From Daphnia pulex (lineage: Eukaryota > Arthropoda > Branchiopoda > Diplostraca > Daphniidae): a DNA stretch of 64,000 bases. The translations under genes and the position numbers were made by a program. The stretch lies in assembly GCF_021134715.1 (NCBI RefSeq), contig NC_060026.1:14313001-14377000 (forward strand). Direction: 5' to 3'. Shown one piece after another: positions 25,201-64,000 of the stretch. Numbering within the stretch: position 1 is the stretch's first letter; every line of letters starts with the position of its first letter. The notes beneath the pieces are model-generated. The model made no database searches. It saw only the letters and a list, made by a program, of their open reading frames with translations, and was not told the origin of the DNA.

Positions 25201-25795
25201 TACCATAGTTGGATTCATTTGAGAAGCCAGCATTTCAATCAGTTCAGGGATGAAATCATCCACCAACTATTAAGTAGAAAAATGGGTAAGGAAGATGAGG
25301 GAATATGATGTAATGAAAGGCATTACCTTAATGCACTTCAACTGAACCATTTTGATTGGCATAAGCTTGCATGAACCTTCAAAAACTTGCTTCATGTCCT
25401 CCTGGGTTTCATTGGAGAGAAGCTGGTCTCTGGCCTCCTGGACCATTTCTTTACATACCTCGCAGATGCTGTCATTATCTTCTGGGACGCTTTGCCTTTC
25501 CCAAACTGTCTGGATGCAGTGCTTTGTTGCACGGCATGATTTAGCATTGGCGATGCTCTGGCACCAATAACTTGGGCCTTCAGAACATTGATTAACTGGT
25601 GTTGGCAAGTCACCAGCAGAGATCACGACCATACCAGCAGCACACGCCAATAAGCCTGTTGTCAAGAGAATATAAATTGAGGGAAAAGCAGTCTAACAAG
25701 TGAAAGTGAAATCACAAAAGAAAGCAGTAACAGGCTAGTCAATTCAAGCGACACTTACCAAAAGCTGCAGTGAAAAACACCGCCTTGGACGCCAT
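22291..25795 (-). CDS. Prosaposin, saposin precursor
   Basis: Thirteen exons join to 888 residues: 25795-25759, 25655-25327, 25266-25006, 24938-24795, 24723-24511, 24441-24310, 24244-23951, 23877-23685, 23624-23355, 23273-23098, 23042-22668, 22603-22409 and 22338-22291. Saposins are lysosomal activators of sphingolipid hydrolases, cut from a secreted precursor. A signal peptide (VFFTAAFGLLACAAG) is followed by an N-terminal saposin-A domain (SYWCQSIANAKSCRA), seven saposin-B domains starting ICEVC, CESC, CQFC, CMLC, CSLC, CVMC and CEIC and each closing with a C...LC type segment (LLCN, LGFC, LTLC, LQLC, LKMC, MGLC, VHLC), and a C-terminal saposin-A domain (CTWGPSYWCASPQHADAC). Exon borders mostly lie inside each saposin-B domain. 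Vertebrates have four saposin-B domains; insect Sap-r has more, so seven is expected for arthropods. Confidence 0.93.
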
Positions 25796-28589: not shown

Positions 28590-30321
28590 TCAAAGGGGAA
28601 CAGCTTTGCGGATGAAAAGGTACTCGGAGAATTGCTGGCCTTCAACTCCGCCGCCGTTGGATGCAGCGATGCTGAAATTGGCGTTCAACAAACGCGTGAT
28701 CGCCTTCAATAAAATTGAAATCATTTAAATACAATTATATGTTTTCCCGGATTTTCAATTCAATTTTCAATTTACCTGCATCGAGTTCAACTTGCAGTAG
28801 CCGTTGAGCGGGAAGCGGATGACGTGCCGAGGGTCCTGATTCCAAGCCACGCTGGATCGGCCATCCATCAGAGGCGTGGCGATTTCCGGAAAAATTTCTT
28901 CCACCAAATTCCGGTCGCCGGATAACATGATCCTCTCGCCCAAATCGGGACTGACGTACAGGGCTAGACACTCCCAACCCAAGCGGCTGTTGCAATCATC
29001 TCCGGGCGAACCGGAATCTTCGGCTATCAAATCCTTCCGGCACGTCAAACCGGCCACACCTGGAGCTCCGCCACCGCCTTCGTTGCTACTGCCTCCGCCG
29101 GGTGAATTTTGCTGGTGATCCATCCGGTTGCTGGATGAAACAGCCGAACGTAACCGGACGCCACCAGTCACGCTCATCCCGCCAGAAACGGGCGAACAAC
29201 GGGACCCCGAAACCGGACTGGAACTCGGCATTGCCGGATGACCGTTGTGCTGGTGGCTGTTGTACAATTTATCACCTGGAAAATCATTTTCAAATTTCAA
29301 AAAATTTAGAAACAAAATTAACTTAAATTAAAACAGTAATTTTATTTTATTTTTTTACCGTACTGTCCATTCCGCGTCCGTCTTTCCATCCGCAACATTT
29401 CCAACGCTTTCACCATGGCTATTATTTAAAGAAAAATTTATGAAAAATTAACAATTTAAATTAAAATAAATGAAAGAATAATCATTACGGATGATGTCGT
29501 AATATTTGGCCTCTTCCAGTAAAAGTTCCACATCGGCAAAATCGTCCGGGAGGAGTAGTCTTCCGTTGCGGACGAAATTGAGGACGTGCCGGAACATCTG
29601 GCCGTCCCTATCGATAAAGTAGTGCTGCTTCAAACTGTCCAGGACGATGGGGATGCCGCCGTTGAACATTTTGGCCAGTCGCGACTCGCCGAATCTCGTC
29701 GTGAGCGTTTCCAGCGACGACGTGTAGATGGTCCCGCCGACGTCAATGTGAACGGGCGCCGTGTAACGAGACGCCGCCGCTACGCTGGGGATGCCGGCCA
29801 ATTTGGGCGTGTAAGAAGCCGAATTGGAAGAGATCACCTGGAGCATCGGCGTCGTCGTGGGCGTCGGAGTTTGGGGAGCCGGTGACGACACGGCGCTCAA
29901 CGTCGGTGACGTCGCCGGAGATAAACTCGGAGATAATAGCCTATCACAAAGTTAAAATTAACATCAACTCTAATTAGTTTATCTATCATCCAAGAAAAAT
30001 TTTAAAAATCCCACTCAAATTTAAATGAATTTAATTTAATTTGAAAATCCCGCTCAAATTTAAATGAATTAAATTTAATTTGAAAATCCCGCTCAAATTT
30101 AAATGAATTAAATTTAATTTGAAAAAAATTTCATTTCAATTGAACCGTGAACTTTTAAAATGTCAAGCAAATTTTGATTAAATTTTCTGATTTATTTATA
30201 CAGGTAAGCGGATTACCGGAATAACCGGATGCTTTTCTATTATTTTTCATCCGAAAAATAATCTTTCCAAAAAATGTTGTTACCTGGAATGCGCTTTGCC
30301 GATCATTCTCTCCACCTGCAT
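28590..30321 (-). CDS. KCTD1/KCTD15-type BTB protein
   Basis: Exons 30321-30284, 29940-29489, 29418-29359, 29275-28776 and 28703-28590 join to 387 residues. KCTD1/15 are nuclear BTB proteins that bind and repress AP-2 transcription factors; the Drosophila member is tiwaz. The BTB domain (about residues 76-165) has [16 protein letters not shown] and [20 protein letters not shown]; the C-terminal domain has [45 protein letters not shown] and [11 protein letters not shown]. Between them is a Gly/Ser-rich linker of about 70 residues absent from the vertebrate proteins (about 260-280 residues). The N-terminus is uncertain: a good acceptor at 30390 (preceded by CTTTCTTTC) begins an open exon in frame with the Met at 30321, so an upstream coding exon may exist. 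A possible 5' exon donor lies near 31682. Confidence 0.9.
30004..30121. repeat. Three 39-bp tandem repeats in a KCTD1/15 intron
   Basis: The unit AAAATCCCGCTCAAATTTAA(...)TTTAATTTG is present at about 30004-30043, 30044-30082 and 30083-30121; the last two copies are almost identical and the first has small changes. It lies in the intron between 29940 and 30284. It is a minisatellite and probably polymorphic. Confidence 0.9.
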
Positions 30322-35586: not shown

Positions 35587-38500
35587 CTAACTTGGCTCGA
35601 CACGAGTTATTGTGCCCTTTGATCCGTCCAGGATGACGACATCGCCGGAACGGAATACTTGAGTCACTTTATCGCAGCCCACGATCGCTGGCAGACCCTG
35701 TAAATAAACCGGAATAATTATGAGGAAAATCTATAGAATCAATAAATATTCAAAGTTCAGTCAATACATATTCTCGGGCCACAACAGCTCCGTGAGAAAT
35801 CAGACCACCGAGCTCCGTCACGACGCCAGACAACAACGGGAAATACGGACTCCATCCGATGTCTGTGCTCCGCGTGATGAGGATGTCTCCGTTCTGGATT
35901 TCTTTGGCTTCTTCCAGGTTCAAGGCGACACGGACTGTTGCTCGAACGGTTCCCTTGAAGACTGGAGTTCCCGTCAACTGGACTCCATCAGCACCTACCA
36001 TCTGGTCAATCAAACGCGAATAAACAATCGACTACAGAATTAAAAACGTGTCTAAAAGTCAAAAATTACCAATTCTTCGGTAGACGATTCTTCTAGGGGT
36101 TGGGGAATACCCAGTGACATTTCAGGGAAGACGAGAGCATCCAGATCTGGGTGAAGTTTCCGTCTCCTATTGGCCTTGTTGATTAATGCGACGCCATTTG
36201 AATGAATGAGCTGCTGTAGCTCCGAATGCGTGAAAAAGAAAATCAGGTTGGCGTCAGGGATTTTGCCATCTCGGACCAAAAGTTGGGCCAGTCTGCGGTA
36301 AGCCATTCGGAAGACATGAATAGTGCGGATCAACAACGACTTGGTTTTCTCGCGAGCGATAACAGCATCGCGACTGCGAGGGACGAAGAATTTCAAGGCG
36401 CGATATTTTCCCGGCTTGCTCTGTCCAATGATTTTGAGCCAGTCATCATTAGACTTGGTCGGTTGGGAGTTGGGAGCAAAGCTAACTGGATTAGCCACCA
36501 TTGATTGGAGGACAGACACCAGGGATCGGCAATTCATTCCCCAAGTTTCAGTTGCAATGTCGAATTCTTTGATGCCCCGATGTCCATGTCGGGCGATGAA
36601 TGAACGAAACAACCGACCGGCATGTCCGGGATCCGTCTCCAGCCAAACTGATGCGACTTCTGGTGCGTGATCAGTAAACTCTTTAACATCGTCACTCTTC
36701 AATATGGCTTCAGCAATTTGCTGTCAAAAAGCAAACACACGTTAAATGTCTAATCTAAAATTCAATTTGAAATCTGGCACGTACCTTGAGAGCAACTGGA
36801 ACATCAGCCGATTCGATATTGGAAATTGAACTGAGTAACTGTGCCATTTCACCGTACAATTCCGGCGTCCATTCATTACGTCCGTCCAATAAAATGATGA
36901 AAGCAATCAATTGGCTAATCGTTCCAGCTCGGCTCACTTGCAAGTGGGTGTTACTAATTTCAAGTAAACGAGGTAGCTGAGAACTTATTTCATCATAGAG
37001 TTCCTGAGAGTTGATGTATTTTTCCGATGGAATTGAATAGTCGGCGAACTTGCGGACAGCTTTTTTCACGCGTCTAAACACGAAGAAAAAATCTAATTAA
37101 ATAAACAGTGTTTCTTTCACAAATGTCAGTAAGTTGACAAACCTGTTGTTAAAACACATGTCATTAAACATGTGTCTGAATCTCAAAAGTTTCACTCCCC
37201 AGCCTGCAACACCAAAACGATCCTTGCCGATTTGGTGCATGGTCGAGTTGGAGACCCTGAGTTAAAACGAATTTTCATTTAGCGCAAATAAATTTAAATA
37301 TGAAATTGCAACTCACAAGTGACCGAAAATGGCCATGTCGACGGAACGATGATGTGATGTTATTTCTTCTCCAATGTCTCGCTGGAAAGTGTCGATGACG
37401 TTGATGAAAACTTGGTTCTGGAAGAACAAGTTAAATCGACCAATACACCAAGGATTGACCTCAAAAAATCTGGCAAATTGCTCTTTAATCACAAATTGGA
37501 AACTGAGATCTAAAGCCCTGGCGGTAACTGATAGGCCAAGAGGAGAAGTTGCACCGGGAAAAACTTCGCCTGTGTTCGCCTTAGTCACGTAGTCTGAATC
37601 CGTGAGAATAGGAGAATCAAATTCATGACGAAGTTCAAAGTCAGTCCAAGCATCGAGCGCAGTAACTGGTCTTGCCTGAATAATATTTGGAAGTAAACAT
37701 TTTACAAATCTATAAGACCAATACGGCAATACTACAAAGACTAGTTTAAATTTTACCTGGAGCAAATACAGTGCGCCTCCGGATACAGCAAATTCCAAGT
37801 CCCTTGGTCCACCAAATGCCTTTTCTAAATAGACTCCAAGTTGACCGAGTTCTAAGACTTTCTCGTCCGACAAGCACAATGTGGTCGATACTTCTTCCGC
37901 AATCTTTTCTTCACGGGTACCATCATCTGACAGAATCACTTTGGTTTGTTTAGCTCCGACAGTTCGAGAAGAGACGGATAATTCTCCACTTGACGTCCTT
38001 TTGATGTAAAAAGTATCGGGGTCAGCGGAAGCGGAAACAACCGACTCGCCCAACCCGTAGTTGGCAGTCAAAATCATTTTGCTTGGGTCACCATCGTTGG
38101 GGTTGACAGTGAAAAGAACTCCAGCGGCTTCGGCGTCGACCATCTCCTGAATAACCACACCCATTCCTAAATATCGTCTCATTTAGCAAATAAATCAAGA
38201 AATACGTGATGGATTAATAATACCTGGAATGAGAGGCTCTCCATGTTGACGACGATACTCGACCGACTGATAAGAAAGCAGCGACGCCCAACATTTACGC
38301 AATCCTGACATGATGGATTCGAATCCTTGACAACCGAGTACAGTGATATTTTGTCCAGCAGAAGACAATTCTTCGCCGTCTTCACCAACTGCTGACGATC
38401 TTACAGCGAACCGTTTCTTTTCAGATTCATCACCAAACAATTCCTGCCATATTTTGAGAGAATATTATTTTGTGATGTAACTAAAAATTGTTATTCGAGT

Positions 38501-40559
38501 TTACCTGCAGAGCTTCTCTGATGCAATCCTGAACGAACGTGTCGACAGGAAGAGAAGCTACGAGGTTCTCCGCTTTGATGCAAAAATCCTCCAGTTTCCC
38601 TTTAACCACTCCAGTTGCTACATCTTCCAGCTGTAGGAATACTTCTTCAATATCGCGGTTATTTTGTGTTTGAGCTTTCCACGCATTGACTGTCACGCAA
38701 AATCCGGCTGGAATTTGACATGCCACAGGAGCTTTCCTTGAGTTGCTGCTAAGGAGAGCCAAAGATGATCCTTTGCCTCCTACTAAACTTTCGAAGCGGC
38801 AAGCCTCTTCATTAAATAACAAAACGAGTTTTTCTGTTTCAGACGACGATGGTTCGCGATTAGGAGCACTCAAATAAGGAACAGATACTTCATTTGCGAT
38901 TGGACAATATCCGTGAAACACGTTGGTGTTTACCAAAACCACGCGTCCTTGGCGTGAATTCAATGTCAAGTGACACGGGTATGTCGTGCTACAATGAACC
39001 CACGGACGTCCAATGAAATGTTCGAATGGTGATGATGGGAGCAAATGGATGGTTGCGTGATAGTTGCGGCTTTTGGTGGAAAAGCGGATTGAAAAATGTC
39101 TTGGGACTGTGCCCTTTTCCCCGATATCTTTCAAATCTAGACTCGATGCATCAATTTTGTAGAGAAATCCATTCGGTTGGAAGACATGACCCCAGACTTC
39201 GTGAGTTAGACGAGCTGAATCCGAAGTAGCGCTCAAATAGAAATAATGTCCATCCTCAGAAGCTCCAACGATATCTAATTTCCTATTAACAGAAGTCGGA
39301 TGTTAGGTGTGACTCTTCTCCCATTGAAGTATCGAATTTACCTGCGCAATGTCGAAGCATTGTTTTGTCCCCAACGCCTTTGACGAAGACTGCGCAGATA
39401 AATTTCTTTTTCAATGTCCAAACTACTATCTTGATAAGTTCCGAACATAACACCCCACTGGTCGACCCCATCTACAGTTGGCTCACTAATATTTCAAAGT
39501 ACATTTGATAAGGTAAAAAAAAAAGAAAGTTACTTTGTTATTAAACATTCTCAACCTCATTTGTGACCAATCAAGCTGCCCCCTCCAACGCTCCCGAGCC
39601 ATTCCTTGCGCTAGTAACTTGTGACTGAATTCTCGTTTGAACTCGAACGGACGAGTAAACGTTGCCCAGATCAGGTTGATTCTCAAGTGCACTTCAGTTT
39701 CCTATACAGAATAAATCAATTAACATTTTAATTAAAGTGACGATTTAAAGAAAAAAACCTAACCTTTCCGTGGCGCGTTCGCTTCGCTAGGCCGTTGAAT
39801 GTTATCCGCCATTTCTTCATGGCTTCGAGAAGTTGGAATTTCAATCTGCCGTCGGTATTAAATGATTCCCTGCCATCCGTATTTGAAATCAAAGTATCAG
39901 GGGCGGCTGTTAAACAAATAATGAATATTTTAATGATTTAAAAGAATTCAGATTGAAAATACCGGGTAATCGGTAGACAGTTCCATCTTTCAGCGTAAAC
40001 AGGAGCGTAACCTGAGCTTGCCGATTGATCAGACGATTAATCGACACTTGAAGGAACGTACTGTCGCCATCGGTTCCGTAAAATGTCAACCCGTCAAAAT
40101 CCTACAGGACGAGATTATTACTTAAGAATAATTCAGAAACTTAATAAATTAAAAATTGTTTTTACCGTCATTAATTTCAGGGGATGTGGTTGTTCCCATG
40201 CAATTTCCACATTGGTCGGCACCAATCTTCCAATTTGGTTGTATCCTTTGGAATTGACTTTATTGTAGTCATCGTCAATTGTGTTGTTGAGAATGCGAGG
40301 ATTTTTCTTTAGTTTCCGACTCAACCAAATTCTGGCAGCGATGATTTTCAATAAATACCAAGGTCCTGATTTTATGTTTTATTATTAGAAACTTTCTAAA
40401 ATACTAGGAAACGATTTAATTTGCATATTTAAACTTACCGGGATTGGTGTACGATGATCTCAACGATTTCGGAATATCCAAACTCGCAAACAGCTTCCAC
40501 CAAAGAACAAAAAGCACAACGAAAATAATTAAAAAAGCGAGGCACGTAGAGAGATCCAT
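35587..40559 (-). CDS. PEP-synthase/rifampicin-phosphotransferase-like enzyme, copy 1
   Basis: Fifteen exons join to 1352 residues: 40559-40439, 40365-40166, 40101-39963, 39906-39764, 39701-39556, 39485-39342, 39282-38505, 38443-38224, 38166-37757, 37675-37317, 37256-37143, 37073-36785, 36720-36070, 36001-35768 and 35697-35587. An N-terminal membrane anchor (CLAFLIIFVVLFVLWW) precedes about 430 residues with two beta-rich stretches (DGLTFYGTDGDSTFL; EDGHYFYLSATSD). Then comes an ATP-grasp domain (VGGKGSSLALL, RSSAVGEDGEE, AAGVLFTVNPNDGDP, ANYGLGESVV, LLQARPVTAL), a helical middle, and a swivelling His domain with His1308 in GGLISHGAVVAREYGLP. This order is that of bacterial rifampicin phosphotransferase and PEP synthase, which pass phosphate from ATP via the His. 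The substrate in animals is unknown. Copy 2 lies just upstream in the same orientation. Confidence 0.88.
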
Positions 40560-41705
40560 GACTGAAGACACTCGGGCGTCACACTAGTGAGCGGTGACTG
40601 TAGATCTTGAAAAAAAAATCCAATAATAGTCGCCCAACAACAGTTCGATGGCACCAAGTCCAACTTAAAAAAAGAAAAAATTATGGAGATACATTTTGTG
40701 TTATCTTGCGATGCTGTTACATTAGCCTATCTCGGTTCAATCTCAAACACAAACATTAAATAATGATCAAAGGTCTACAAATTATTTGTTCAAAACCAAT
40801 AAGGTGTAAAAGAAACTTTTGTAAACTTGTCGCTTAGAATCTATAGATACCGGATAACAGGACTTTGTATTTAGATGACAAGATAGTTGAAATTCAACGT
40901 CCAGACAGACAGTAAAATAATCTGATCAATTCTTGACGTACTTTGAACGCGATGAGTCAATCCTGGAGGAAAAAAAAATTTACGCCAAGTTCATGCACAA
41001 ATTAAGCTACAACAAAAAACAAAACAAAACACAATGCACAAACTGATGGGGATTACACTTTAGGCTAGGATGTTTTAAGACAACATTCTCAGTTCCAGTT
41101 TGAAACATCAATGATAAAAACGTGTTTCTCCTTACCAATGCATCACCAAGGCCGTACAAGCTTAGGTCCTTATCTCGACGAGCACAATCTTATCTCTCAT
41201 CTTGGCCGGCAGCCAAATACAAGGGAAATCACCACTTTCTCCTGACCCTATTTATCGCATCAAAACAACACGCACGGAATACTCAACAAATTAGTTGTAA
41301 AAAATTCCTTACATCAAAAGGGTCTCTCCTGTTCCTTCCCACGTATCAAAATAAATTTCTAAGAATGAAGAAAAAATAATTAAAACATTTTTAAAAAACC
41401 TAAAAACGGTCCAGCTACCCCTTCAAATAACAACTTTGAAACTGCAATACATTTTTATTTACTAAACATATGATGGGATATTTTGGACAGAGTCGTCAAC
41501 AAACCTACAAGCCCTTCCACAAAAGAAACAAAACAAAAAGAGTAATTAGTTTGAACGGTCTGACGAATGTCCCCAAAACGAAGTATCTAGAAAAATACTA
41601 TAACTATATTAACCGATTAATAGCATACTGCAATGGAGGATTATAATTCCCTGAATCCCCTTGTAAAATTTTGGATGACAAGACCAAATTTTAGCTCTAT
41701 CAATT
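40560..41705. other. Spacer between the two PEP-synthase-like genes
   Basis: About 1.1 kb holding the copy 1 promoter and the copy 2 3' UTR. I see no coding exon. The open frame at 41122-41379 lacks support. Confidence 0.45.
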
Positions 41706-44700
41706 TTATGCTTCCACGCGTGTAATGGTTCCTTTACTTCCATCAAGGATAACTATATCACCAGAACGGAAAACTTGCGTTACTTTCTGGCAACCAACGA
41801 TAGCCGGCAAACCCTAAAATAAGAACGTATGAAATTATTATCAATTCAGGGGAAGTCAAACAAAGTGAATTACATATTCTCGGGCCACAACAGCTCCATG
41901 AGAAATCAGGCCGCCGAGTTCCGTCACGACGCCAGACAACAACGGGAAATACGGACTCCATCCGATGTCTGTGCTCCTCGTGATGAGGATGTCTCCATTC
42001 TGGATTTCTTTGGCTTCTTCCAGATTCAAGGCGACACGGACTGTTGCTCGAACGGTTCCCTTGAAGACTGGCGTTCCCGTCAACTGGACTCCATCAGCAC
42101 CTACCATCTGACCAATCAAACGCGAATAAACAATCGACCGCCAACTTAAAAACGTGTCTAAAAGTCAACAATTACCAATTCTTCAGAAGACGATTCTTCC
42201 AGGGGTTTGGGAATACCCAGTGACATTTCGGGGAAGACGAGAGCATCCAGATCTGGGTGAAGTTTCCGTCTCCTATTGGCCTTGTTGATTAATGCGACGC
42301 CATTTGAATGAATGAGCTGCTGTAGCTCCGAATGCGTGAAAAAGAAAATCAGGTTGGCGTCAGGGATTTTGCCATCTCGGACCAAAAGTTGGGCCAGTCT
42401 GCGGTAAGCCATTCGAAAGACATGAATAGTGCGGATCAACAACGACTTGGTTTTCTCGCGAGCGATAACAGCATCGCGACTGCGAGGGACGAAGAATTTC
42501 AAGGCGCGATATTTTCCCGGCTTGCTCTGTCCAATGATTTTGAGCCAGTCGTCATTAGACTTGGTCGGTTGGGAGTTGGGAGCAAAGCTAACTGGATTAG
42601 CCACCATTGATTGGAGGACAGACACCAGGGATCGTGAGTTTAATCCCCAAGTTTCTGTGGAAAAGTCGAATTCTTTAATGCTACGATGACCATGTCGGGA
42701 TATAAATGAACGGAACAATTTTCCTGGTTGTCCTTGATCTTTTTCCAACCAGGTCGATGCAACTTCTACAGAGCCTTTCCTAAAATCTTTACCATCCGCA
42801 CTTTCAGAAATCGCTTTGGCAAGCTCCTATAAGGCAAAATAAAGAATAAACATTTTTTCAAAAGTCTCAACAGTTGAAATCGAATACTTTAAGGGCAACA
42901 GGTACATCAGCTGACTCGACGTTTGAAATAGATGAGAAAAGCTCTGCCATTTCACCGTACAGCTCGGGTGTCCATTCCTTTCTTCCATCCAACAAAATGA
43001 TGAAAGCAATCAACTGAGTCATGGCACTTGCGCGGCTCACTTGCGTATGAACACGACCAATTTCTACCAAGGCAGGCAGGTGGACGCATATTTCATCATA
43101 CAGTTTCTGTGAATCCGTTTGATTTTCAATAGGAAACGAATAGTCGGTGAATTTCTTCACAGCTCGACTAACCAGTCTAATTTTAAAATAAAGATAATTT
43201 GTTAATCATAACATTGATCAATGTTTTATGTCTTTAGTTACTTGTGATTGAAGAACAAATCCTGAAAGATAGTTCTATATCTATTATACTTCACTCTCCA
43301 TCCGGCAACCCCAAAACGCTGTAGACCAAGACGATGCATGGCGGGCGTAGTGATACTATAGGACGGAAATTAATAAAAAAATAATGATTGGTGGTTTTTA
43401 TCTAAAATAAAAAATGAACAAAATAAATGTAAACGAAACTTACATATGACCAAAAACTGCCATGTCAATAGCACGGATGTTGTCGCTAATTTCTGCTTCA
43501 ATGTCACGAAGAAAAGCTTCGATAACATTAATGAATAAATGATTCTGTTGGTACGAGAAAAAACGACCCCCATGCCAAGGATTGATGTCAACTAGACGTC
43601 CAAATTGCTTTTTGACAATTGTCTGGAAGTTGAGATCAAGAATTCGAATGGTGGTTGAAACTGTAAGAGGAGACGTCGCTCCGGGGGCAACTTCACCAGT
43701 GTTGGCTTTCGTGAAATAATCTGAATTTGTGAGTATAGGAGAGTCAAATTCATGACGAAGTTCAAAGTCAGTCCAAGCATCGAGCGCAGTAACTGGTCTT
43801 GCCTGAATAATACACGTAAACGCAATTTTCAGAACTCTATGAGAACAACATTACAAAGACTAGTCTAAATTTTACCTGGAGCAAATACAGTGCGCCTCCG
43901 GATACAGCAAATTCCAGGTCCCTTGGTCCACCAAATGCCTTTTCTAAATAAACTCCAAGTTGACCGAGTTCTAAGACTTTCTCGTCCGACAAGCACAATG
44001 TGGTCGCTACTTCTTCCGCAATTTTTTCTTCACGGGTACCATCATCCGACAGAATCACTTTAGTTTGTTTGGCTCCGACAGTTCGAGAAGAGACAGACAA
44101 TTCTCCACTTGACGTCCTTTTGATGTAAAAAGTATCGGGGTCGGCGGAGGCTGAAACAACCGACTCGCCCAACCCGTAGTTGGCAGTCAAAATCATTTTG
44201 CTTGGGTCGCCATCGTTGGGGTTGACAGTAAATAGAACTCCAGCTGCTTCGGCGTCGACCATCTCCTGAATAACCACTCCCATTCCTAAATGTCACAACA
44301 CATTTAGCAAATAAATAAAGAAAGTTTAACGTGCTGATGGAGTAATAATACCTGGAATGAGAGGCTCTCCATGTTGACGACGATACTCGACCGACTGATA
44401 AGAAAGCAACGACGCCCAACATTTTCGCAATCCTGTCATGATGGATTCGAATCCTTGACAACCAAGTACAGTGATATTTTGTCCAGCAGAAGATAATTCT
44501 TCGCCGTCTTCACCAATTGCTGACGATCTTACAGCGAACCGTTTCTTTTCAGATTCATCACAAAGTTCCTATAACATTTTGGGAGAATATTATTGGATAT
44601 GCTCTGATTAAAAATCATCATCCGAGTTTACCTGCAGAGCCTCTCTGATGCAATCTTGAACGAACGTGTCGACAGGAAGAGAAGCTACGAGCTCCTCCGC

Positions 44701-46781
44701 TTTAATGCAGCATTCTTCGAGTTTTCCTTCAACTACTCCAGTTGCTACATCTTCCAGCTTTTTGAAAACTGCCTGCACATCTTCGTTGTTTTTAAATTGA
44801 GCTTTCCACGCATTGACTGTCACGCAAAATCCCGCTGGAACTTGACATGCTACAGGAGCTTTCCTTGAGTTGCTGCTAAGGAGAGCCAAAGATGATCCTT
44901 TGCCTCCTACTAAACTTTCGAAGCGACAAGCCTCTTCATTAAACAACAAAACGAGTTTTTCTGTTTCAGACGACGATGGCTCGCGATTAGGGGCACTCAA
45001 ATAAGGAACAGATACTTCATTTTCATTCGGACAATATCCATGAAAAACGTTGGTTGATACGAAAACCACACGTCCTTGGCGTGAATTCAACGTCAAGTGA
45101 CACGGGTATGTCGTGCTACGATGTGTCCATGGGCGTCCTAAGAAATTTTCGTATTGGCAAGGCTTTAGATGAATAATCGCGTGGTAATTGCGGCGTTTCG
45201 CAGCAAAACGGACTGAAAAATGGTTAGGGACTGGGCCATTTTCTCCCAGCCTTTCTAAATCCAAATTGCAGGCGTTGATTTTGTAGAGGAAGCCATTCGG
45301 ATGGTAGACATGTCCCCATACTTCGTGTGTGAGCCGGGAAGAATCTGATGTGGCACTTAGGTAGAAATGATTTCCGTCCTCACAAGCTCCAATGATATCT
45401 AATTTCCTGTTACAAACACAAAGGGGAAATTATTAGGAAAGAGTATTCCCACTTGTAGTTGTTATTGATTCTACCGGTGCAACGTTGGTGAGTTGCTCTG
45501 TCCCCATCGTCTTTGGCGAAGGCTGCGGAGATAAAATTGTTTTTCTATGTCCAAACTGTTATCCTGATAGGTTCCGAGCATTGCACCCCATTGATCCATG
45601 CCATTTAAACACGGTTCACTGATATTCAAAATATTTGTTACAATTGATAAACGATAAGTTTTGCGTCACACCGCCCACAAGAGTTATAACAATTGCTTTC
45701 TTGGAATATGTTTCTCTTTGTATACAGTGTGAGCGCGCAAATAAAAATTGCTGTTGTACTAACCTCATTTGCGACCATTCTTGTCTTCCTCGCCATAACT
45801 CGCGTGCCATGCCTTGTGCTAATAATTTACGACTAAACTCGCGTTTAAACTCGTAAGGGCGGCTAAAGGCAGTCCATACGATGTTGATTCGTAAATGAAC
45901 TTCGGTTTCCTTGAAGAGATTAATATGACATGCATTTTCAGGTGTAAGTAAACTGTGTCTTCAAATCAATTGCTCATTACCTCTCCATTGCAGGTACGCT
46001 TAGCCAGTCCGTTAAATAAAATTCGCCATTTTCTCATAGCCTCTATGAGTTGGAATTTTATTCCACCAGCATTGAAACTTTCTTTGCCATCTGTATTTGA
46101 TATCATAGTGTCTGGAGACCCTGTACTCAGAAAATAAAAAAATTAAGATTCTTGATTCTCAGAACCAGCAATTAGTAATAATCTCAATAAGTTCTACTAA
46201 AAATGTTACAAACAATGCAGAGCATAGACCTGGTAGTTGATATGTTGTTCCATTGGGGAGAATTAACAACAATGAGACTTGAGCTTGTCTATTAGTTCTG
46301 CGTTCAATTGAAATTTTTAGGGAAGTATCAGCTCCATCAGTTCCAAAAAAACACAGTCCATCAACAGACTATTAGGAAATGGAAAGATACAATGACTGGA
46401 AATTTCTTAGCATGACAAAAATAAACACACTTCTCTATTTTTCAGCTCGTGTGGTAGTTCCCACACTTTCTCTAATTCTGTTGCAACAAGTCCAATTTTC
46501 TCATATTTCTTTGATGTTGTGTCGTACACATTTAAAACTCTGGGATGACGAACTAATTTCCAGGCTAACCAAATCCTTCCACATATTATTTTCAAGTAAT
46601 GCCAAGGTCCTGATCAAAACAAAAGTATTAACTTATTCAAACAAAGAAACCTGTAATAAATTTTACCAGGGCGAGCATAAGGGGTGTGAAGAAGTTTGGG
46701 TCTGTAAGGAACTTTAACCATAGCCCTGATGATTAGGGCAAGTATTGGCCCTCCGAAGAGAAGCAACCACCATTCAATCAT
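41706..46781 (-). CDS. PEP-synthase/rifampicin-phosphotransferase-like enzyme, copy 2
   Basis: Fifteen exons at the same positions and phases as copy 1 join to 1339 residues: 46781-46667, 46609-46431, 46368-46230, 46120-45981, 45909-45764, 45618-45475, 45406-44632, 44568-44352, 44285-43876, 43802-43444, 43355-43242, 43176-42888, 42826-42176, 42107-41874 and 41813-41706. The anchor is WWLLLFGGPILALIIRAMV. The ATP-grasp motifs and the His domain (His1296 in GGLISHGAVVAREY) are intact, so both copies look catalytic. The anchor, exons 2-6 and the helical middle (exons 10-12) differ a lot from copy 1, while exons 8, 9, 13 and 14 are almost identical. Different middle regions, the substrate-binding part in bacterial relatives, may mean different substrates. 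Confidence 0.88.
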
Positions 46782-47859: not shown

Positions 47860-49138
47860 TCAAACAGCATACAAATATGCATTTCTTTTCTTCCCATCCA
47901 AAGGCGGATTAGTGAACGGGGAGAACCATTGAATACTGAACAGGCCAAAGACAGAGTGGAAGCTCTTCCACCGGGACTTTCTTATCCAGCGCGCCTCTTC
48001 TTTTTTCAGTTGTTCGATGCCCTAAATGAAAACACCAATTTTTAATGGAAATCGAATTAAGTTTTAGAAATGCTGAAATTATCTTACGGTCTCATCGTTC
48101 CATATCGCTTGCATCTGAGTCCCGAGCATAATAGTTGTAAAAATCGCAAAAAGCAGCGCCTCGAAACCGAGAAACAACAATAGAATGACTGTGGCTGGCG
48201 GACTATATGTCGAACATTCTTTCCATTCAGAATGTACGCATGATATGAACTGCAGAATGACCAGCACCAAAGAATGCACTGAGAGAGTAGCTATGTAGAA
48301 CTGCAGAGAAAATAAAAACAAAACAAGGTTAGTGATAATCTCCAGTTCCTTGTAATAACATTGAACTTACAGTAAAAAGGACAAAAAACTTTTGATTGTT
48401 TTCCCCAACACAATTGTTAACCCAAGGGCAATGGTCTAAAAAACAATAACAACACATATTTATAAATCTCACACTATAAAAATATTTATGAAATAATGTT
48501 AGAACTTACGGTCCATCTTCCTCACACACCTGTTAACAAATTATAATTAGGATCAAAATTACAGTGTTAAAAAAAAATAAACAATATGATTACCTTTGAC
48601 ACACTGAACAATGATGGGCTCTCTCAGGCTTGATGGAACAGCACTTTTGGCACTTGAATATAACTTGTCCTTGTTGCAATCCCATTCGTTGAATCATTTC
48701 TTTTGTAGCATTTCCTCTTGGTACAGCTCCCTGTAGTTGAATTAGTTAGTAAATACTTGAGACAAAGTACTCTCATGATAAGCACAGACTTACTGGGTCA
48801 GTCAGCATTGTTCTAACATGTGAGATGAAGGCAAGAGACGAAAGTGCCATAAACAGGATGAGATTGAACACACTGAAAATTGTGTGGGTCGAAATTGCAG
48901 GTATCAGGATAACAAAAAACGACACAAACATTGAATAGAGGATAAGGAACCAGGTAAGGACAACGCAGATGATCCCACAAATATCTTGGATGCACCAGAA
49001 TCGTCCGGAGCAACATCGGTTATGCATATCCATATCGGAAGTGAAACCGAGTCCCGAACTAACGTTAATACTCAAATCGTCGTCTCGTTGTTCCATTTGA
49101 AATTGATTGCTATTATTGCTGTGATTGTTGTAATTCAT
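47860..49138 (-). CDS. DHHC palmitoyltransferase, ZDHHC3/7 type
   Basis: Exons 49138-48794, 48730-48594, 48529-48510, 48435-48371, 48300-48088 and 48021-47860 join to 313 residues. Members attach palmitate to cysteines of membrane-associated proteins, mainly at the Golgi. Four membrane segments are visible ([54 protein letters not shown] and [20 protein letters not shown]). The zinc-binding cysteine-rich domain reads [20 protein letters not shown] then [11 protein letters not shown], with the catalytic Cys in DHHC; the motif is split by an intron after MD. The end ([19 protein letters not shown]) matches ZDHHC3/7. Exon 3 is only 20 bases, supported by exact phase fit. The N-terminal 30 residues are Asn/Gln-rich. 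Confidence 0.93.
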
Positions 49139-49622
49139 TTTGTTATTAACAACATAAAGTTTAGAACACTAAATCAGTTATGAACATTGTCAGTTTAAGA
49201 AACACTTGCGTTGGACCTTTTGTTCGATAATTTTAAATGGATTAGAAAAAAGGTGTTGGGAACGGTAAGTCGGTAAGACACGGTACAACAGGATGACAGC
49301 TCACTGCTCAGTGTTTTCAACCTGTTTCAGATAACATATCAAGGCCCTTGAAGCGCCACCGACATATACGGTAGCGATCCTAGTGTCTAAAAAAGAAACT
49401 CAATTACACAGTTTAAACTTGGTTCTGAATATGTGTATGCGTATTGTATTGTGATTTATTCATTTTTTTAAATGCCGACGTTAGAAAGCGAAAGACATGA
49501 GATTCCAATTAAAATTCGTTTCACAACTACTCGCAATTACAGCATGAGAAAAAATACCCGTTACCTTACCAGCCTTTAATTTTAAAACTTTAGTTTTTCA
49601 TAAAATTCAGAACTCTGTAAAA
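49139..49622. other. Short spacer upstream of the palmitoyltransferase gene
   Basis: It contains the ZDHHC promoter and the 3' UTR of the first ligase gene. No TATA box or other feature is evident. Confidence 0.4.
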
Positions 49623-51879
49623 TTATAGCAATTTTTTTAGTTCACGGCGGAGAATTTTGCCAGTGTTTGTTTTGGGAATAGCGTCGAGGAAGACAACTCC
49701 ACCCTTCAACCTTTTATGATGAGAAACTTTTGCATCAACAAATTCTATAATATCTTCCTTGGACAACGGGGTGCCTTCCTTTTTAACAACATAAGCTCGA
49801 GGAAGTTCACCAGCAATATCATCTGGAACACCGATCACTGCAACATCCAAAACGCCAGGAATGCGGCGTAAAACATCTTCCAACTCTGAAGGTGATACCT
49901 TGATCATAAAAAAAAAATTAATTTAATTAATTACTATCGAAATTCACCCAATTTCGTTATAATATGACGTATACCTGAAGTCCCTTGACTTTGATAAGCT
50001 CTTTCAAGCGATCGACAATAAAAAACTGGTTTTGTTCATTGTAGTAAACCATATCTCCAGTGTGGAGCCATCCTTCACTGTCATATGTTTCTTTGGTAGC
50101 TTTTTCGTTTTTAAAATATCCTTTCATCATTTGTGGGCCTTGTACACACATTTCTCCGGGTTGTCCAGGTCCAAGCGATTCACCGGTATCGACATCAATA
50201 ACCTTTACATGGGTCCGCGGTAACGGCTCACCAAACGAACCGATTTGATTATTCTTCACTGGGCTTAAATGACAAGCAGAAGTTGTTTCAGTCATTCCGA
50301 AACCTAATTTGCAAAAGGAACCAAGTTAGAATTTACGTCAAAGTCACTATAATATCTAATTACCTTCTTGCATCAAGAGATCAGGCCTTCCTAAACGCTC
50401 GACGAATCTGGTGGCAACAGCTGTGCCCAACGGAGCGGCGCCAATGGCGACCGTATGCAATCGCTGGAAGGCTTCCAGTTTCAAATCAGGTCGAAGTCCC
50501 AGAAACGCCACAAGTGGAGGCACAAGATGAAGTGTTGACGGCTGCCACAAGTTTCAATGATAGAAAGTTTAACACTTGAGTGCGATGTTTGAGTGCAATA
50601 CAAGTTTACATGATGTTGATGTAGAGAATTGACGTAGGACTCTCCTTCAAACCGAGGTAGAATAACCATCTTTGCTCCTAGATCCAAACCAGTCAGCATA
50701 ACGCCAACCATTCCATACATGTGGAAAAACGGAAGAATGACAACGTAAACCTCTTGAAGCTCGTCGGTTGCGTTACCTGATGTAAAAGAGAAAAAAACAA
50801 AACTTAAATTGAGAGAAAACTATATCAAGTTAAGTTAAATTTTACTAGTCGGTGGTGGAGAAGTAAGTTTCATTGCTGTTGGATGCAACAGTTGTTGAAT
50901 GTTAGCGGTGATATTAGCATCGGTGAGCATAACACCCTTGGGAAGACCAGTTGTTCCGCTAATAGGTAGGAATAATTTTGTTTATAATTAAATATTATAG
51001 AAATTAAATGGCTAATGAAGTTACCTTGAATAAGGGAGCGCAAATATGTCTTCTGATGGATTAACCTGAAACCCAATTGTTTATTAAATTGTAATTAATT
51101 ATAAAAAATAAATTTCAATTTCATACGTTAATATTTTCGTCGTAAAGATCACCGGAATCTTGCAACATTTCTCCAAAAGTAGCAAATCCTTCTTCAGGTT
51201 GTCCTATTATGATGAGGCGGCGTATTTCTGGACACTGTTGAGCCACTTGGCGAAGAGTTCCCGCCAATTGCGGAATAGTCACGACGACAGTGGCGCCAGA
51301 AAGTTGCATTTGGCGCGCAATTTCTTCGACGGTGTAAATAGGATTCACGGTGGTAACGGGCATTCCGATACCGGCCGCTCCGAGTAAAACAATTGGAAAT
51401 TCCGGAAGATTGGGAAGAAGCATTCCAAACACTTCACCTTTCTTAAAACCCATCCGAACTAGAGCACTGCCGAAACGGCGTATCAAAACGATTAATTGAC
51501 CATAAGTGTATTTGCGACCAGTCAAACCGCATTCCTGTAATTGACGTTTAATTCAATGAAACTCACGCAACAACATTTAACCACTGAAAAGATACGATAA
51601 ACTTACCGTAGCTGTAAGATTCGGCCACATGGAAGCTCGTTCAATAAAGCGCTGCACTACTGTTTGAGTGCGGAGATCGAAATCCTGGTGACGAGAATAC
51701 ACGATGTTCTTATCGATCGACGAGTTACCGACCGATGTTGCACAAGACACTGCCCGAATCTGGACACTCGGCTTAAGAAGCTGTACAGCAGTTCGACTGG
51801 CAGTCTTGGAACGGATGGCTTGAATTGCCTTCAAACCAGTTTCCAACGATTTGAGACGTTGAATGCTGAGACCCGCCAT
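49623..51879 (-). CDS. 4-coumarate-CoA-ligase-like acyl-CoA synthetase, copy 1
   Basis: Exons 51879-51607, 51534-51127, 51065-51025, 50958-50846, 50776-50610, 50541-50364, 50303-49975 and 49898-49623 join to 594 residues. The enzyme activates a carboxylic acid with ATP to an acyl-AMP, then to a CoA thioester. Family motifs are SSGTTGLPKGVM (AMP binding, split by an intron), FFHMYGM, GFGMTETTSACH, WLHTGDMVYYNEQNQFFIVD, and the catalytic Lys in PKTNTGKILRREL. The first 60 residues are basic and Ser/Ala-rich with no acids until Glu13, suggesting a mitochondrial presequence. The C-terminus is KKLL, not the SKL peroxisome signal common in firefly-luciferase relatives. The acid substrate cannot be told from sequence. 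A tandem copy lies just upstream (52846-55111). Confidence 0.92.
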
Positions 51880-52845
51880 TGCTTTGCCTACAATTTCCAG
51901 TGAAAATGTAGCGAATTAATGTCTAAAACAACCATAATAAGACGAATTTATACGATTTCGAAATTTGCCAGAAATACAGTATGTTAAACTGATAAACATA
52001 AACAGTTGCAACTTGCTATTGTTGGATACCAATAAGGTATCAAGGAAATGTATAGCTTAAAAGCTAAATTAAGAACCTGGGTTGGTATGACGTTGTTTTG
52101 AAGCTGTAGAAGTCGAACTGACGAGAAAAAAGCTATAATAAACACAGTGGTATCCCGTACACGTTCCAATACCCACTGACTATGCCTCTCTACTACCACG
52201 CTACTCACTGCCAGCCATGCCACAGGGTCGGTATCGAAATCCATCACGAGTTGCCAGTTCGGGATTATGTGTTCCTAGAAAACAATTCACTTAAAAACAC
52301 CTGTTGGAATTCGGATGATAATTTCTCTGTTGTTAACTTGTTATTTAAATATTTGTTTTGTTTTGACAAAAAATGTACGTTGTTTGGAATGAATCAAATC
52401 ACGAATAAATACAATAATTTCTGAATTGCCATTTTGATGTTTAGATTGTCTATGTTATTGAAAATTAATCAGGATTAGGATAAATTCGGGTTAATTTCCC
52501 CTTCATCTTTCAAATTCAAACAACTTGAGTATTGCGGACGAAGAAAGATAACAGATTGCAGGACAGATACGGTCTAACAACTAACGTATCCCAGAGAACC
52601 TAGTGTTGGAATTTGGAAATAGTTACTGCGTTCAGCCGGATACCGCTACTTGTTTGAAATAGGATTCGTTTAAGTTTATTGCATACAAAAGATAATATTC
52701 TTAACGTCCGAGAACTATTCAGCACGTATACAAAAATAATTTTGCCAAAAATAAATTGCTATTTCATTATAAAATATTTTTCTACAATAATTTTTAACGT
52801 TTAAAATGGTCTGACATTTAGCCCACATAGATTTTAAGTTTATAA
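51880..52845. other. Spacer between the two ligase genes
   Basis: Just under 1 kb, holding the promoter of ligase copy 1 and the 3' UTR of copy 2. No exon or repeat is recognised. Confidence 0.45.
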
Positions 52846-55111
52846 TTATAACAAGCTCTTTAATTCACGTCGAAGTATTTTACCTGTGGCAGTTTTGGGA
52901 ATCACATCAAGAAAGACAACTCCGCCCTTCAACCTTTTATGATGGGACACTTTTGCATCGACAAATTCAATGATATCTTTCTCAGTTAACAAGATACTTT
53001 CCTTTTTAACAACATAAGCTCGAGGAAGTTCGCCAGCAATATCATCGGGGACACCGATAACTGCAACATCTAAAATACCAGGAATGCGTCGTAAAATATC
53101 TTCCAATTCCGATGGGGCTACCTAGAATTTTCACATCATTATTATTTACTCGCCTTACAAAATAACAGATGAATCATATACACCTGAAATCCCTTCACTT
53201 TGATGAGCTCTTTCAATCGATCAACAATGAAGAACTGGTTTTGTTCGTTGTAATAAGCCATGTCTCCAGTGTGAAGCCATCCATCGCTGTCGATAGTTTC
53301 TTTTGTGGCTTTTTCATTCTTGTAGTAACCTTTCATGAGTTGCGGGCCCTTTATGCATACCTCTCCATGTTGACCAGGTCCAAGGGATAGACCGGTAACA
53401 AGATCAACAACTTTGACTTGAGTCCGAGACAGCGGTTCTCCAAATGAACCGATTTGGCTGTTAACTATCGGGCTAACATGGCAAACACAAGATGTTTCAG
53501 TCATTCCGTAGCCTAAAATCAAATTGAACATTAATATTAATAAACTTTAGATGCCACCAATTTTGATGCATTTAAGGCAAAGCTATGTAACCTGCGAGCG
53601 TATACCTTCTTGCATGAATAAATCAGGTTTCCTTAAACGTTCGATGAACCTAGTGGCTGCCGCTGGTCCCAATGGAGCGGCACCAACAATGACCGTATGC
53701 AATCGGTGAAAGGCTTCCAGTTTTAAATCAGGACGAAGTCCGAGTAACGAAACTAGTGGAGGTGCCAGGTGTAGCGCCGATGGCTTCGTAGAATTTTAGT
53801 TAACAATGAAACAGTCGATTCAAGATTCCAATTCGATGCTTACCCTATGTTGGTGTACAGAATTCAGGTAAGATGCGCTTTCGAAACGAGGTAAAGTTAC
53901 CAGCTTGGCTCCGTGATCTAACCCAGACAACATAACGAGAAGCATCCCATACATGTGGAAAAACGGGAGTACGCAAATCAGGACTTCTTGCAAGTCTGAT
54001 GAATCACCTGTTAATCAAAATTCAACGGAAATTTGAACCGGGATATTAGCAAACGAGTTTCAAATCTCATTACTGGATGTCGCTGGACAGTAGGCAACCT
54101 TCATTGTTCCTGGATGCCCAACTTGAGCCATGTTAGAACACAAGTTAGAATGGGTAAGCATGACACCCTTAGGAGGACCAGTGGTCCCGCTAATTAAGAC
54201 AATTAAAACCATTGATCAATTAATCGAATCTGTGTCAACTGTTCGAATTGAATTACGCTAGTACCTTGAAAATGGAAGTACAAATATGTCTTCGGATGGA
54301 ATAATCTGTAAAATGAAATGTTACTTTCCATTTAATTTACTTTGAACAAAATTCAATATTTCATACGTCAATATTTTCGTCAAAAAGATCGCCGGAATCT
54401 TGAAACATGTCTTCAATGGAAGCGAATCCTTCTTCCGGATTTCCAATAACGATGAGACGACGAATTTCCGGACACAGTTTAGCTACTTGGCGAAGGGTTT
54501 CCGCCAATTGCGGAGTAGTCACGACGGCAGTGGCACCAGATAGTTGAAGTTGGCGCGCAATTTCTTCAACAGTGTAGGTAGGATTCACGGTAGTCACTGG
54601 CATTCCGATACCGGCCGCTCCAAGTAAAACAATAGGAAATTCCGGAAGATTCGGAAGAATAATTCCAAACACTTCACCTTTCTTAAATCCCATCCGAGTC
54701 AGTGAACTGCCGAAACGACGAATCAATTGAATTAATTGGCCGTAAGTATATTTGCGGCCAGTCAATCCGCATTCCTGAAATAAATGAAATCATCCAAAAT
54801 GTTTTTGTGGTTTTCTTTAAACATTTAAACGAAGAGCTAACCATAGCCGTAAGATTCGGCCATAAAGAAGCCTTTTCGAAGATGCGCTGGATTACTGTTT
54901 GACTACGGAAATCGAAATCCTGGTGACGAGAATACACGATGTTTTTATCGACCGACGTCGAGGTTGAAGAGACGCCGGAAATCGTCCGACATTGCACTCG
55001 ACTCACATTACGAATCCGCTCAACAGAACCGTTCGTGAAACGAATTGTCTGAACGATGGCCTTCAAACTGGTTTCAATGGATTTAAGACGCAGTAAATTG
55101 TAACCAACCAT
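52846..55111 (-). CDS. 4-coumarate-CoA-ligase-like acyl-CoA synthetase, copy 2
   Basis: Exons 55111-54842, 54774-54367, 54305-54265, 54189-54074, 54007-53844, 53783-53606, 53512-53184 and 53121-52846 join to 593 residues. All seven intron positions match copy 1. Motifs are SSGTTGPPKGVM, FFHMYGM, GYGMTETSCVCH, WLHTGDMAYYNEQNQFFIVD and PKTATGKILRREL, so it should be active. The N-terminus (LLRLKSIETSLKAIVQTIRF) is again basic and amphipathic, suggesting mitochondria. The C-terminus is KSLL. Exons 4-6, around the acyl-binding pocket, differ most from copy 1, for example MLLVMLSGLDHGAKLV against MVGVMLTGLDLGAKMV, so the two may prefer different acids. Confidence 0.92.
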
Positions 55112-59523
<4,412 letters not shown>

Positions 59524-63957: not shown

Positions 63958-64000
63958 TTTTGTTTTGTTTTTTTCGTGAGCCAATAAGCGGGTAAATCTA

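Follow-up and report, generated by a model that had tools for sequence, protein, structure and literature searches.

We analyzed a 64,000-nt stretch of the Daphnia pulex genome (NC_060026.1, 14,313,001-14,377,000; hereafter the window, the whole stretch examined) and identified two tandem minus-strand genes, A and B, each encoding a single chain in which a putative lipocalin-like barrel precedes a dikinase of the rifampin phosphotransferase (RPH) type, behind a presumed membrane anchor. Their catalytic core adds a new member to a superfamily already described, and the new part is the anchored barrel fused to the dikinase, an arrangement that matches a prokaryotic gene pair. With moderate confidence, and by analogy with characterized relatives, we read the proteins as membrane-anchored two-module enzymes that would act as ATP-dependent kinases for a hydrophobic alcohol.

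To obtain the gene models, we read the minus strand and joined exons at GT-AG splice sites into open frames. Gene A (35587-40559) encodes 1352 residues and gene B (41706-46781) 1339, each in 15 exons, and the outer limits of the pair are exactly the span 35587-46781 given in the first-pass annotation. The exons of gene A lie at 40559-40439, 40365-40166, 40101-39963, 39906-39764, 39701-39556, 39485-39342, 39282-38505, 38443-38224, 38166-37757, 37675-37317, 37256-37143, 37073-36785, 36720-36070, 36001-35768 and 35697-35587, and those of gene B at 46781-46667, 46609-46431, 46368-46230, 46120-45981, 45909-45764, 45618-45475, 45406-44632, 44568-44352, 44285-43876, 43802-43444, 43355-43242, 43176-42888, 42826-42176, 42107-41874 and 41813-41706. 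All 14 introns of each gene are GT-AG and 56-145 bases long, and the exon end phases are the same in A and B (1,0,1,0,2,2,0,1,0,2,2,0,0,0), in agreement with the earlier count of 14 introns each at identical phases. Neither reading frame contains an internal stop, and an in-frame stop precedes the ATG in both. The N-terminal hydrophobic segment noted at first pass was recovered at residues 6-24 of both proteins (Kyte-Doolittle maximum over a 19-residue window, 2.65 in A and 2.02 in B); it is encoded in exon 1 (gene B, 46667-46781; gene A, 40439-40559), and we presume it to be a membrane anchor.

In the catalytic half, Pfam matched PPDK_N (E 2.2e-66 in A, 1.2e-69 in B) and PEP-utilizers (2.1e-22 and 1.7e-22), and no further Pfam family at E up to 1 in either protein. 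The order in both genes is ATP-grasp, middle region, C-terminal His domain, as had been proposed from the letters and as in RPH. In gene B, the ATP-grasp domain occupies residues 452-763 (exons 7-10, 43779-44916, with Lys457, Arg560, Thr579 and Glu743), the RPH-type middle domain residues ∼766-1236 (exons 10-14, 42078-43772, with Glu792 and Arg1132-Glu1133-Lys1136), and the swivelling phosphohistidine domain residues 1262-1332 (exons 14-15, 41730-42002, with His1296 in SHGAVVAREYG). The top PDB sequence match was RPH (5hv1) at E 9e-76, a value that excludes a match by chance. In gene B the alignment covers the ATP-grasp domain (residues 438-762) and, beyond an unaligned gap at 763-1041, the His domain with the last part of the middle domain (1042-1334).

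Eight residues of RPH-Lm that are named in PMC4844700 (Lys22, Arg117, Thr136, Glu297, Arg666, Glu667, Lys670 and His825) were mapped by counting along the 5hv1 alignment to gene B Lys457, Arg560, Thr579, Glu743, Arg1132, Glu1133, Lys1136 and His1296, respectively. All eight are identical in gene A and gene B. Over 23 aligned rows (the two window genes and 21 bacterial sequences), Arg560, Glu743, Arg1132, Glu1133 and Lys1136 do not vary, Lys457 and His1296 are each conserved in all but two truncated or gapped rows, and the Thr579 column holds Thr in 21 rows and Ser in 2. The same source describes Glu297 of RPH-Lm as dispensable for activity. In RPH, Gln337 binds phosphate. The Gln337 column, mapped by way of the RPH-like plasmid gene L007 as a proxy, is Glu792 in gene B, and all 23 rows have Glu there, so a role as a rifampicin kinase is unlikely.

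The proteins have the PPDK_N domain, RPH-type middle domain, C-terminal phosphohistidine domain and eight residues of the RPH-type superfamily, together with the middle domain and the N-x-[GS]-E-[MV]-x-P-G, HGHR and RE-x-x-K motifs of a Myxococcota-type subfamily described below. The NCBIfam matches shown (25 of 27, among them PEP synthase, RPH, PigC and RedH) all scored below their cut-offs, and we therefore regard the proteins as members of the RPH superfamily that belong to none of its named NCBIfam members. PMC4844700 delimits RPH clade A, the true rifamycin phosphotransferases, by identity to RPH-Lm above 42% and by Gln in block 1. We rejected membership in that clade on the Glu at the Gln337 column (by proxy) and on scores below the NCBIfam RPH cut-offs; identity was 23-28% to eight aligned RPH-like or PigC-like proteins, a set outside which RPH-Lm itself lies. 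RPH-Lm (5hv1/5fbs; PMC4844700) resembles the window proteins in the order of its three domains and in the eight residues, whereas the window proteins differ in the presumed anchor, ∼400 extra N-terminal residues, the Glu in place of Gln337 (by proxy), their introns and a separate clade.

The earlier account of the domains held for this catalytic half and missed the N-terminal domain of ∼400 residues, as well as the gene conversion described below. Pfam found nothing in residues 1-437 at E up to 1 and, at up to 10, only an unrelated family (0.23). A profile of the two animal domains, run against 26 genomes, matched 7 at E ≤ 1. The best match (1.5e-4, genome G067) lies directly upstream of that genome's subfamily dikinase and overlaps its open reading frame (ORF) by 8 bases; the other six were 0.13 or worse. 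Loci L128 and L116 carry an ORF in the equivalent upstream position and L009 a partial one. All four of these partners pass the Pfam cut-off for DUF7064, and three match DUF7065 below its cut-off. In the reverse search, a hidden Markov model of three bacterial ORFs, run on 5777 ORFs of 114 loci plus the two window proteins, matched ∼250 residues of gene B (residues 98-363, end of exon 2 to exon 7, 45181-46433; E 1.3e-11) and of gene A (residues 110-373, ∼39057-40095; E 4.5e-9). The score on the gene B domain was 45.1 bits, and none of 2000 shuffled sequences exceeded 6.2.

Other ORFs with E below 0.05 in this set occurred only in L009, L046, L006 and L058, where they overlap or adjoin the dikinase gene; nearness in the 114 loci is partly by design, because these loci were centred on dikinase genes. 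Pfam cut-offs were passed for both DUF7064 and DUF7065 in L046, and for DUF7065 in L006 and L058; in L006 the annotated partner and dikinase genes are 77 bases apart. The three genes sit directly downstream of dikinases (L046, 6559-7494; L006, 4389-5291; L058, 6516-7532) in an archaeon (L046) and two actinobacteria, next to dikinases of other clades, and the partnership thus recurs beyond the animal-like subfamily. In all, eight loci (seven bacterial and one archaeal) have the partner as a gene of its own immediately next to that of an RPH-type dikinase.

To count the domain genome-wide, we took 24 of 26 subfamily-bearing genomes (G103 and G215 being left out) together with G486 and G350. These 26 genomes (118.9 Mb) gave 32 DUF7064 matches, and 14 control genomes gave none. 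In G001, G067, G237 and G128, the genome's one DUF7064 match is the dikinase neighbor, and 4 adjacencies within 1 kb among 26 genomes correspond to P ∼1e-9 by a rough binomial that treats the genomes, some of them incomplete, as independent. A further pair, L159, sits on a separate contig of G196 (DUF7064-type ORF at 1433-2479 and dikinase from 2476). The contig that carries the dikinase of G262 also has a DUF7064 match, but ∼2 kb off, on the opposite strand and at the contig end.

From these profiles, which were made in this analysis, the N-terminal ∼400 residues resemble the lipocalin-like DUF7065/DUF7064 family, which includes 25-phosphosteroid-lyase/AttH-like proteins. The searches show homology of this domain to the prokaryotic dikinase neighbors; for the reading of the whole protein as a membrane-anchored two-module enzyme we see about an even chance. 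The domain probably extends to about residue 437 in gene B. In prokaryotes the two parts are neighboring genes, and the animal protein therefore has the appearance of two such genes joined into one; the dikinase also supplies DUF7065/DUF7064 with a functional partner. None of the 25 pattern matches from a scan of genome contigs with the animal N-terminal domain was confirmed, a result that says little about absence because both patterns lie outside the part common to bacteria. A PDB sequence search with the bacterial and animal N-domain profiles returned one match each (E 0.54 and 0.29), neither meaningful.

The archaeal partner in L046 links this family to 25-phosphosteroid lyase, which it matched by phmmer at E 3.9e-7 over the whole protein. 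In a Foldseek search with its AlphaFold model, four chains of that lyase came first (E 1.7e-9 to 3.2e-9), and the other 21 matches at E ≤ 0.001 were fungal-type pericyclases (Phm7, CghA, Fsa2 and others), AttH and kievitone hydratase. The lyase carries the motif GSRDRSWG, and PDB 9g4c differs from 9fzn in having Asn for the Asp of this motif. Across the family the motif is R-D-[HR]-S-[WF]-G; the bacterial and archaeal partners have RDHSFG, RDHSWG or RDRSWG, apart from L058 with RTRTWG. Both animal copies read RQRRWG, with Gln at the motif Asp. That this Asp is catalytic is our inference by analogy with CrtC, whose Asp268 is conserved (PMC4717167). With Gln there in both copies, phosphate elimination by the animal proteins is doubtful and a substrate-binding barrel is favored over a lyase; the animal barrel has probably lost the elimination step. 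The animal proteins thus share with the lyase (9fzn, 9g2i, 9g4c), DUF7065/DUF7064 and AttH/CrtC-like proteins an N-terminal domain that is homologous by way of the prokaryotic partners, and members of that family act on hydrophobic substrates; they differ from it in the Gln, the dikinase fusion and the presumed anchor.

We then asked which dikinases are nearest to the animal pair. A tblastn search of 72,556 plasmid records matched 250, nowhere at 80% query coverage; among the 30 plasmid rows listed, identity was at most 32.1% and matches started at query residue 469 or later, leaving the N-terminal part uncovered. In a genome scan, 591 of 596 stretches were confirmed and the best 80 loci kept, among which L009 stood out at E 5e-97, with the remainder at 5e-72 or worse. 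The gene B middle domain, run against 19 whole genomes, matched strongly in G001, the genome of L009 (4.8e-48), and in G012 (9.5e-39), and the other four matches were 1.6e-7 or worse. At E ≤ 1e-10, the subfamily was present in 25 of 282 sampled genomes of Myxococcota, the phylum of G012. A 19-row middle-domain profile at E ≤ 1e-25 matched 9 of 246 genomes in the phylum of G001, three of them strongly (1e-116 or better; G001, G486 and G350). The same profile gave 0 of 144 and 0 of 299 genomes in the phyla of G006 and G009, where the initial screening step scored some candidates only, making these zeros uninformative. Matches at E ≤ 1e-60 were found in 2 of 63 genomes in the order of G067 and 1 of 14 in that of G128. 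A middle-domain scan of viral contigs gave 41 pattern matches, none of which was confirmed.

Two trees were calculated. Tree 1 had 52 rows (the 2 window genes, 24 subfamily ORFs and 26 other RPH-like ORFs) and omitted L121 (94.8% identical to L122), L123 (86.0% to L124), the truncated L130 and the remaining ORFs of the collected set, including PEP-synthase-type and partial rows. Tree 2 had 44 rows (16 subfamily rows, 25 others, L159 and the 2 window genes). Tree 1 unites the window genes with the 24 bacterial subfamily members in a single clade (100/99) that excludes the 26 others. The animal pair is not nested in the subfamily: it is sister to all 24 bacterial members (bacterial side 99/99). 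The four members with a DUF7064-type neighbor (L009, L116, L128 and L134) cluster moderately (88/76 in tree 1, 93/84 in tree 2). Grouping the animals with these four was rejected at the borderline in an approximately unbiased test (p 0.045), the group having been defined after the tree was seen; the best trees keep the animal pair as sister to every bacterial member sampled. The next branches outward in tree 2 are L159 (95/88) and then the pair L058 and L006 (94/95), each with a DUF7065- or DUF7064-type gene beside the dikinase, and since these outward branches are also paired, the barrel-dikinase partnership seems to predate the animal branch. A long branch leads to the animal pair (1.59 and 1.44 changes per column in the two trees), and many rows fail the letter-composition test, which leaves the fine placement unsure.

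The nearest sampled dikinases, by these trees, are a rare, mainly Myxococcota subfamily that is sister to the animal pair. That subfamily, with a few members elsewhere, shares with the window proteins the middle domain over ∼450 residues and the same motifs, and four of its tree members have a DUF7064-type gene upstream; it differs in having two separate genes, a shorter ATP-grasp N-lobe (profile match starting at ∼79-120) and, in many members, other neighbors. An ancient gain from bacteria, as suggested at first pass, is plausible given that, among the prokaryotic, plasmid and viral sequences searched, the closest relatives come from bacteria, and that the fusion mirrors a prokaryotic gene pair. 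With the long branch and the sister rather than nested position, the case falls short of proof.

The two copies have not diverged evenly. Exons 8, 9 and 14 are 96-97% identical between A and B and exon 13 is 90% identical; introns 7, 8, 9 and 13 are 75, 82, 75 and 88% identical, as compared with 42-64% for the other ten. Synonymous divergence (dS) in 60-codon windows was low in two regions of gene A, residues 386-806 (the ATP-grasp domain and its approach; 0.10-0.39) and residues 1047-1286 (the end of the middle domain with part of the His domain; 0.02-0.57). In the anchor and barrel (17-385) and in the first half of the middle domain (807-1046) it was at least 1.3 or saturated, and the final dS window (1287-1346) was intermediate at 0.75. 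Two homogenised blocks can be delimited, one comprising most of exons 8-9 and intron 8 (gene A, 37727-38436; gene B, 43846-44564) and the other the 3′ part of exon 13, intron 13 and exon 14 (gene A, 35768-36465; gene B, ∼41874-42572). Because the near-identical blocks include introns, we attribute them to gene conversion. The phosphotransfer motifs are intact in both copies, as had been claimed, but with parts of the genes converted their identity does not amount to two independent confirmations. Wherever a 60-codon window allowed dS to be computed, nonsynonymous divergence (dN) fell well below it, indicating that both copies were retained. In RPH, most drug contacts reported in PMC4844700 fall at residues 351-479, a segment that lies between the two PDB-aligned pieces, where A and B differ. 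The pattern is one of homogenised catalytic modules and diverged regions that would be expected to choose the substrate (the barrel and the presumed pocket).

In the mechanism that we propose, modelled on RPH and HpeHI, ATP would bind the ATP-grasp domain, His1296 (gene B numbering) would be pyrophosphorylated and lose the gamma phosphate, and AMP and Pi would be released. The His domain would then swing to a second site (49 Å away in RPH), where Arg1132, Glu1133 and Lys1136 would help hand the phosphate to a small-molecule hydroxyl in the middle domain. The substrate would be a hydrophobic alcohol (an isoprenoid, a sterol-like compound or a lipophilic phenol) that the barrel would hold or present at the membrane, probably on the cytosolic face, where ATP is, and the two copies would differ in the regions presumed to choose it. 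HpeHI, a relative of RPH, phosphorylates phenols and is inactive once its His is lost (PMC12167813). Dikinases of the HpeHI/phenylphosphate synthase type resemble the window proteins in the swivelling-His chemistry proposed for small-molecule hydroxyls (same source); they are two-component bacterial enzymes with the ATP-grasp split off, whereas the window proteins are one chain plus the barrel, a comparison of chemistry and architecture.

Several observations weigh against this reading. The animal and bacterial subfamily dikinases are only 28-34% identical, and the Pfam DUF7065 and DUF7064 models are not called in the animal proteins even at E 10. A DUF7064-type ORF was not found directly upstream in 20 of the 24 bacterial tree members (1.5-6.9 kb of upstream sequence), several of which have a luciferase-like monooxygenase gene there instead. 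The phmmer score of L046 against the lyase is the sum of three weak stretches (best alone, E 0.057), its AlphaFold model has low confidence (mean predicted local distance difference test score, pLDDT, 51.2), and the lyase chains reach TM-scores of just 0.35-0.43 to it; the predicted model of the animal exon 7 has a pLDDT of 33. In the first part of the barrel (gene A residues 17-264) dS is saturated, and the hydrophobicity of the substrate is argued from the lipocalin relatives alone.

A bolder form of this proposal, which we put forward tentatively, has a single protein of some animals using ATP to act on an isoprenoid or sterol-like alcohol. In this fused prokaryotic pair the dikinase would phosphorylate the alcohol and a phosphosteroid-lyase-type barrel would bind the phosphoester and process it, either eliminating the phosphate to an alkene by chemistry independent of the family Asp or releasing the ester. 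If it holds, these would be the first animal members of an enzyme class with a predictable substrate type.

The pair might instead detoxify plant phenols or foreign aromatic alcohols, the barrel merely concentrating lipophilic compounds at the membrane. RPH and HpeHI do act on aromatic hydroxyls, and duplication with divergence of the presumed pocket would suit such a gene pair; the archaeal partner protein, however, resembles a steroid lyase and not a resistance protein, and we consider detoxification rather unlikely.

Of somewhat lower standing is a full kinase-lyase, in which the dikinase would phosphorylate a (tertiary) alcohol and the barrel would eliminate the phosphate to leave an alkene, a one-chain ATP-driven dehydratase of isoprenoid or sterol-like alcohols. 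Sterolibacterium dehydrates sterols through a 25-phosphoester: as described in PMC8449060 and PMC7411048, a 25-hydroxysteroid kinase (25-HSK) phosphorylates the C25 hydroxyl and a C-O lyase then eliminates the phosphate, giving an alkene. The likeness of the L046 partner to solved 25-phosphosteroid lyases fits this scheme, and two steps that follow each other in one pathway would account for both the fusion and the recurrent gene adjacency. Against it stand the RQRRWG motif, without the Asp, in both animal copies and the nature of 25-HSK itself, which PMC8449060 presents as a sequential ternary-complex kinase, little like known phosphotransferases and not a dikinase, with no lyase candidate near its gene. 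We regard the full kinase-lyase as unlikely; were it true, animals would gain an oxygen-independent, ATP-driven dehydration of isoprenoid or sterol alcohols.

A PigC/RedH-like ligase, in which phosphorylation would activate a substrate for the condensation of two small molecules, is improbable. Matches to the PigC (E 1.4e-88) and RedH (1.9e-78) models speak for it, as does the Glu that the animal proteins have in common with the plasmid genes L002, L004 and L008 where the RPH-like L007 has Gln; L008 adjoins a gene annotated PigD. These three genes nonetheless fall outside the animal/Myxococcota clade with full support, and the scores are far below the cut-offs.

The first-pass label joined PEP synthase to an RPH-like enzyme, and only the second half survives: no pyruvate/PEP-binding barrel was found by Pfam in either protein, which makes phosphoenolpyruvate (PEP) synthase the wrong name. 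NCBIfam models so named do match, and ATP-grasp and His domains are common to all these enzymes, but the matches lie far below curated cut-offs, the middle domain is RPH-type, and the His domain is C-terminal instead of central, with no pyruvate/PEP domain behind it as in PEP synthase and pyruvate phosphate dikinase (PPDK). PEP synthase, PPDK and glucan water dikinase resemble the window proteins in having an ATP-grasp (PPDK_N) and/or a phosphohistidine domain; they differ in domain order, and the window proteins showed no pyruvate barrel. A pyruvate dikinase of carbohydrate metabolism is therefore a very remote prospect. The least credible account is an artefact of bacterial contamination or pseudogenes, suggested by bacterial-type domains in a eukaryotic window, since 14 GT-AG introns per gene at identical phases rule against contamination, the frames are open over 1339 and 1352 codons, and dN is below dS where measurable. 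An involvement in arthropod sterol dealkylation was also considered and dropped, evidence for it being lacking.

The name PEP synthase has been used for animals before. For bdelloid rotifers a eubacterial form of the enzyme has been proposed (PMC3499245), and in the flesh-fly pupal brain a protein of this name was reported as less abundant in diapause (PMC2990333). The fly protein, if it were the present one, would hint at expression in insects. In the open-licence literature searched, RPH-type dikinase chemistry on an alcohol was not assigned to any animal enzyme, no description of a barrel-dikinase fusion was found, and the word DUF7064 was absent. Arthropod database entries presumably carry the names "putative phosphoenolpyruvate synthase" and "rifampicin phosphotransferase-like". 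For the two-module kinase that we favor, the fused domain and the prokaryotic gene neighbors define a testable substrate class, hydrophobic alcohols.

Other genes were seen near the bacterial dikinases. A luciferase-like monooxygenase (PF00296 by Pfam) lies at or near the dikinase's upstream side in L125 (3675-4697), L131 (9530-10552) and L120 (9657-10526), and by profile match in L124, L123 and L149. On the same side, L117 has an APH-type kinase gene and L129 an alkyl-sulfatase-like gene. In the phylum of G001, very long ORFs of 1550 residues (L139/L147, G509:C24) and 1516 residues (L141/L146, G422:C21) contain two RPH-type middle-domain profile matches each.

The remaining coding segments of the window were assigned by eye. 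Beside the dikinase pair, tandem AMP-dependent ligases of the 4-coumarate-CoA ligase/luciferase type were read from ORFs at 49957-54789 on the minus strand, and fragments of a DHHC-type palmitoyltransferase lie upstream of gene B (48079-49168, minus). Further off on the minus strand are repeated saposin-like cysteine-rich segments (22563-25692), a BTB/KCTD-like segment (28767-29951) and an oxysterol-binding-protein-like segment (63632-63997), and on the plus strand a C1q-like segment (2457-2942) and a coronin-like segment (58029-59523).

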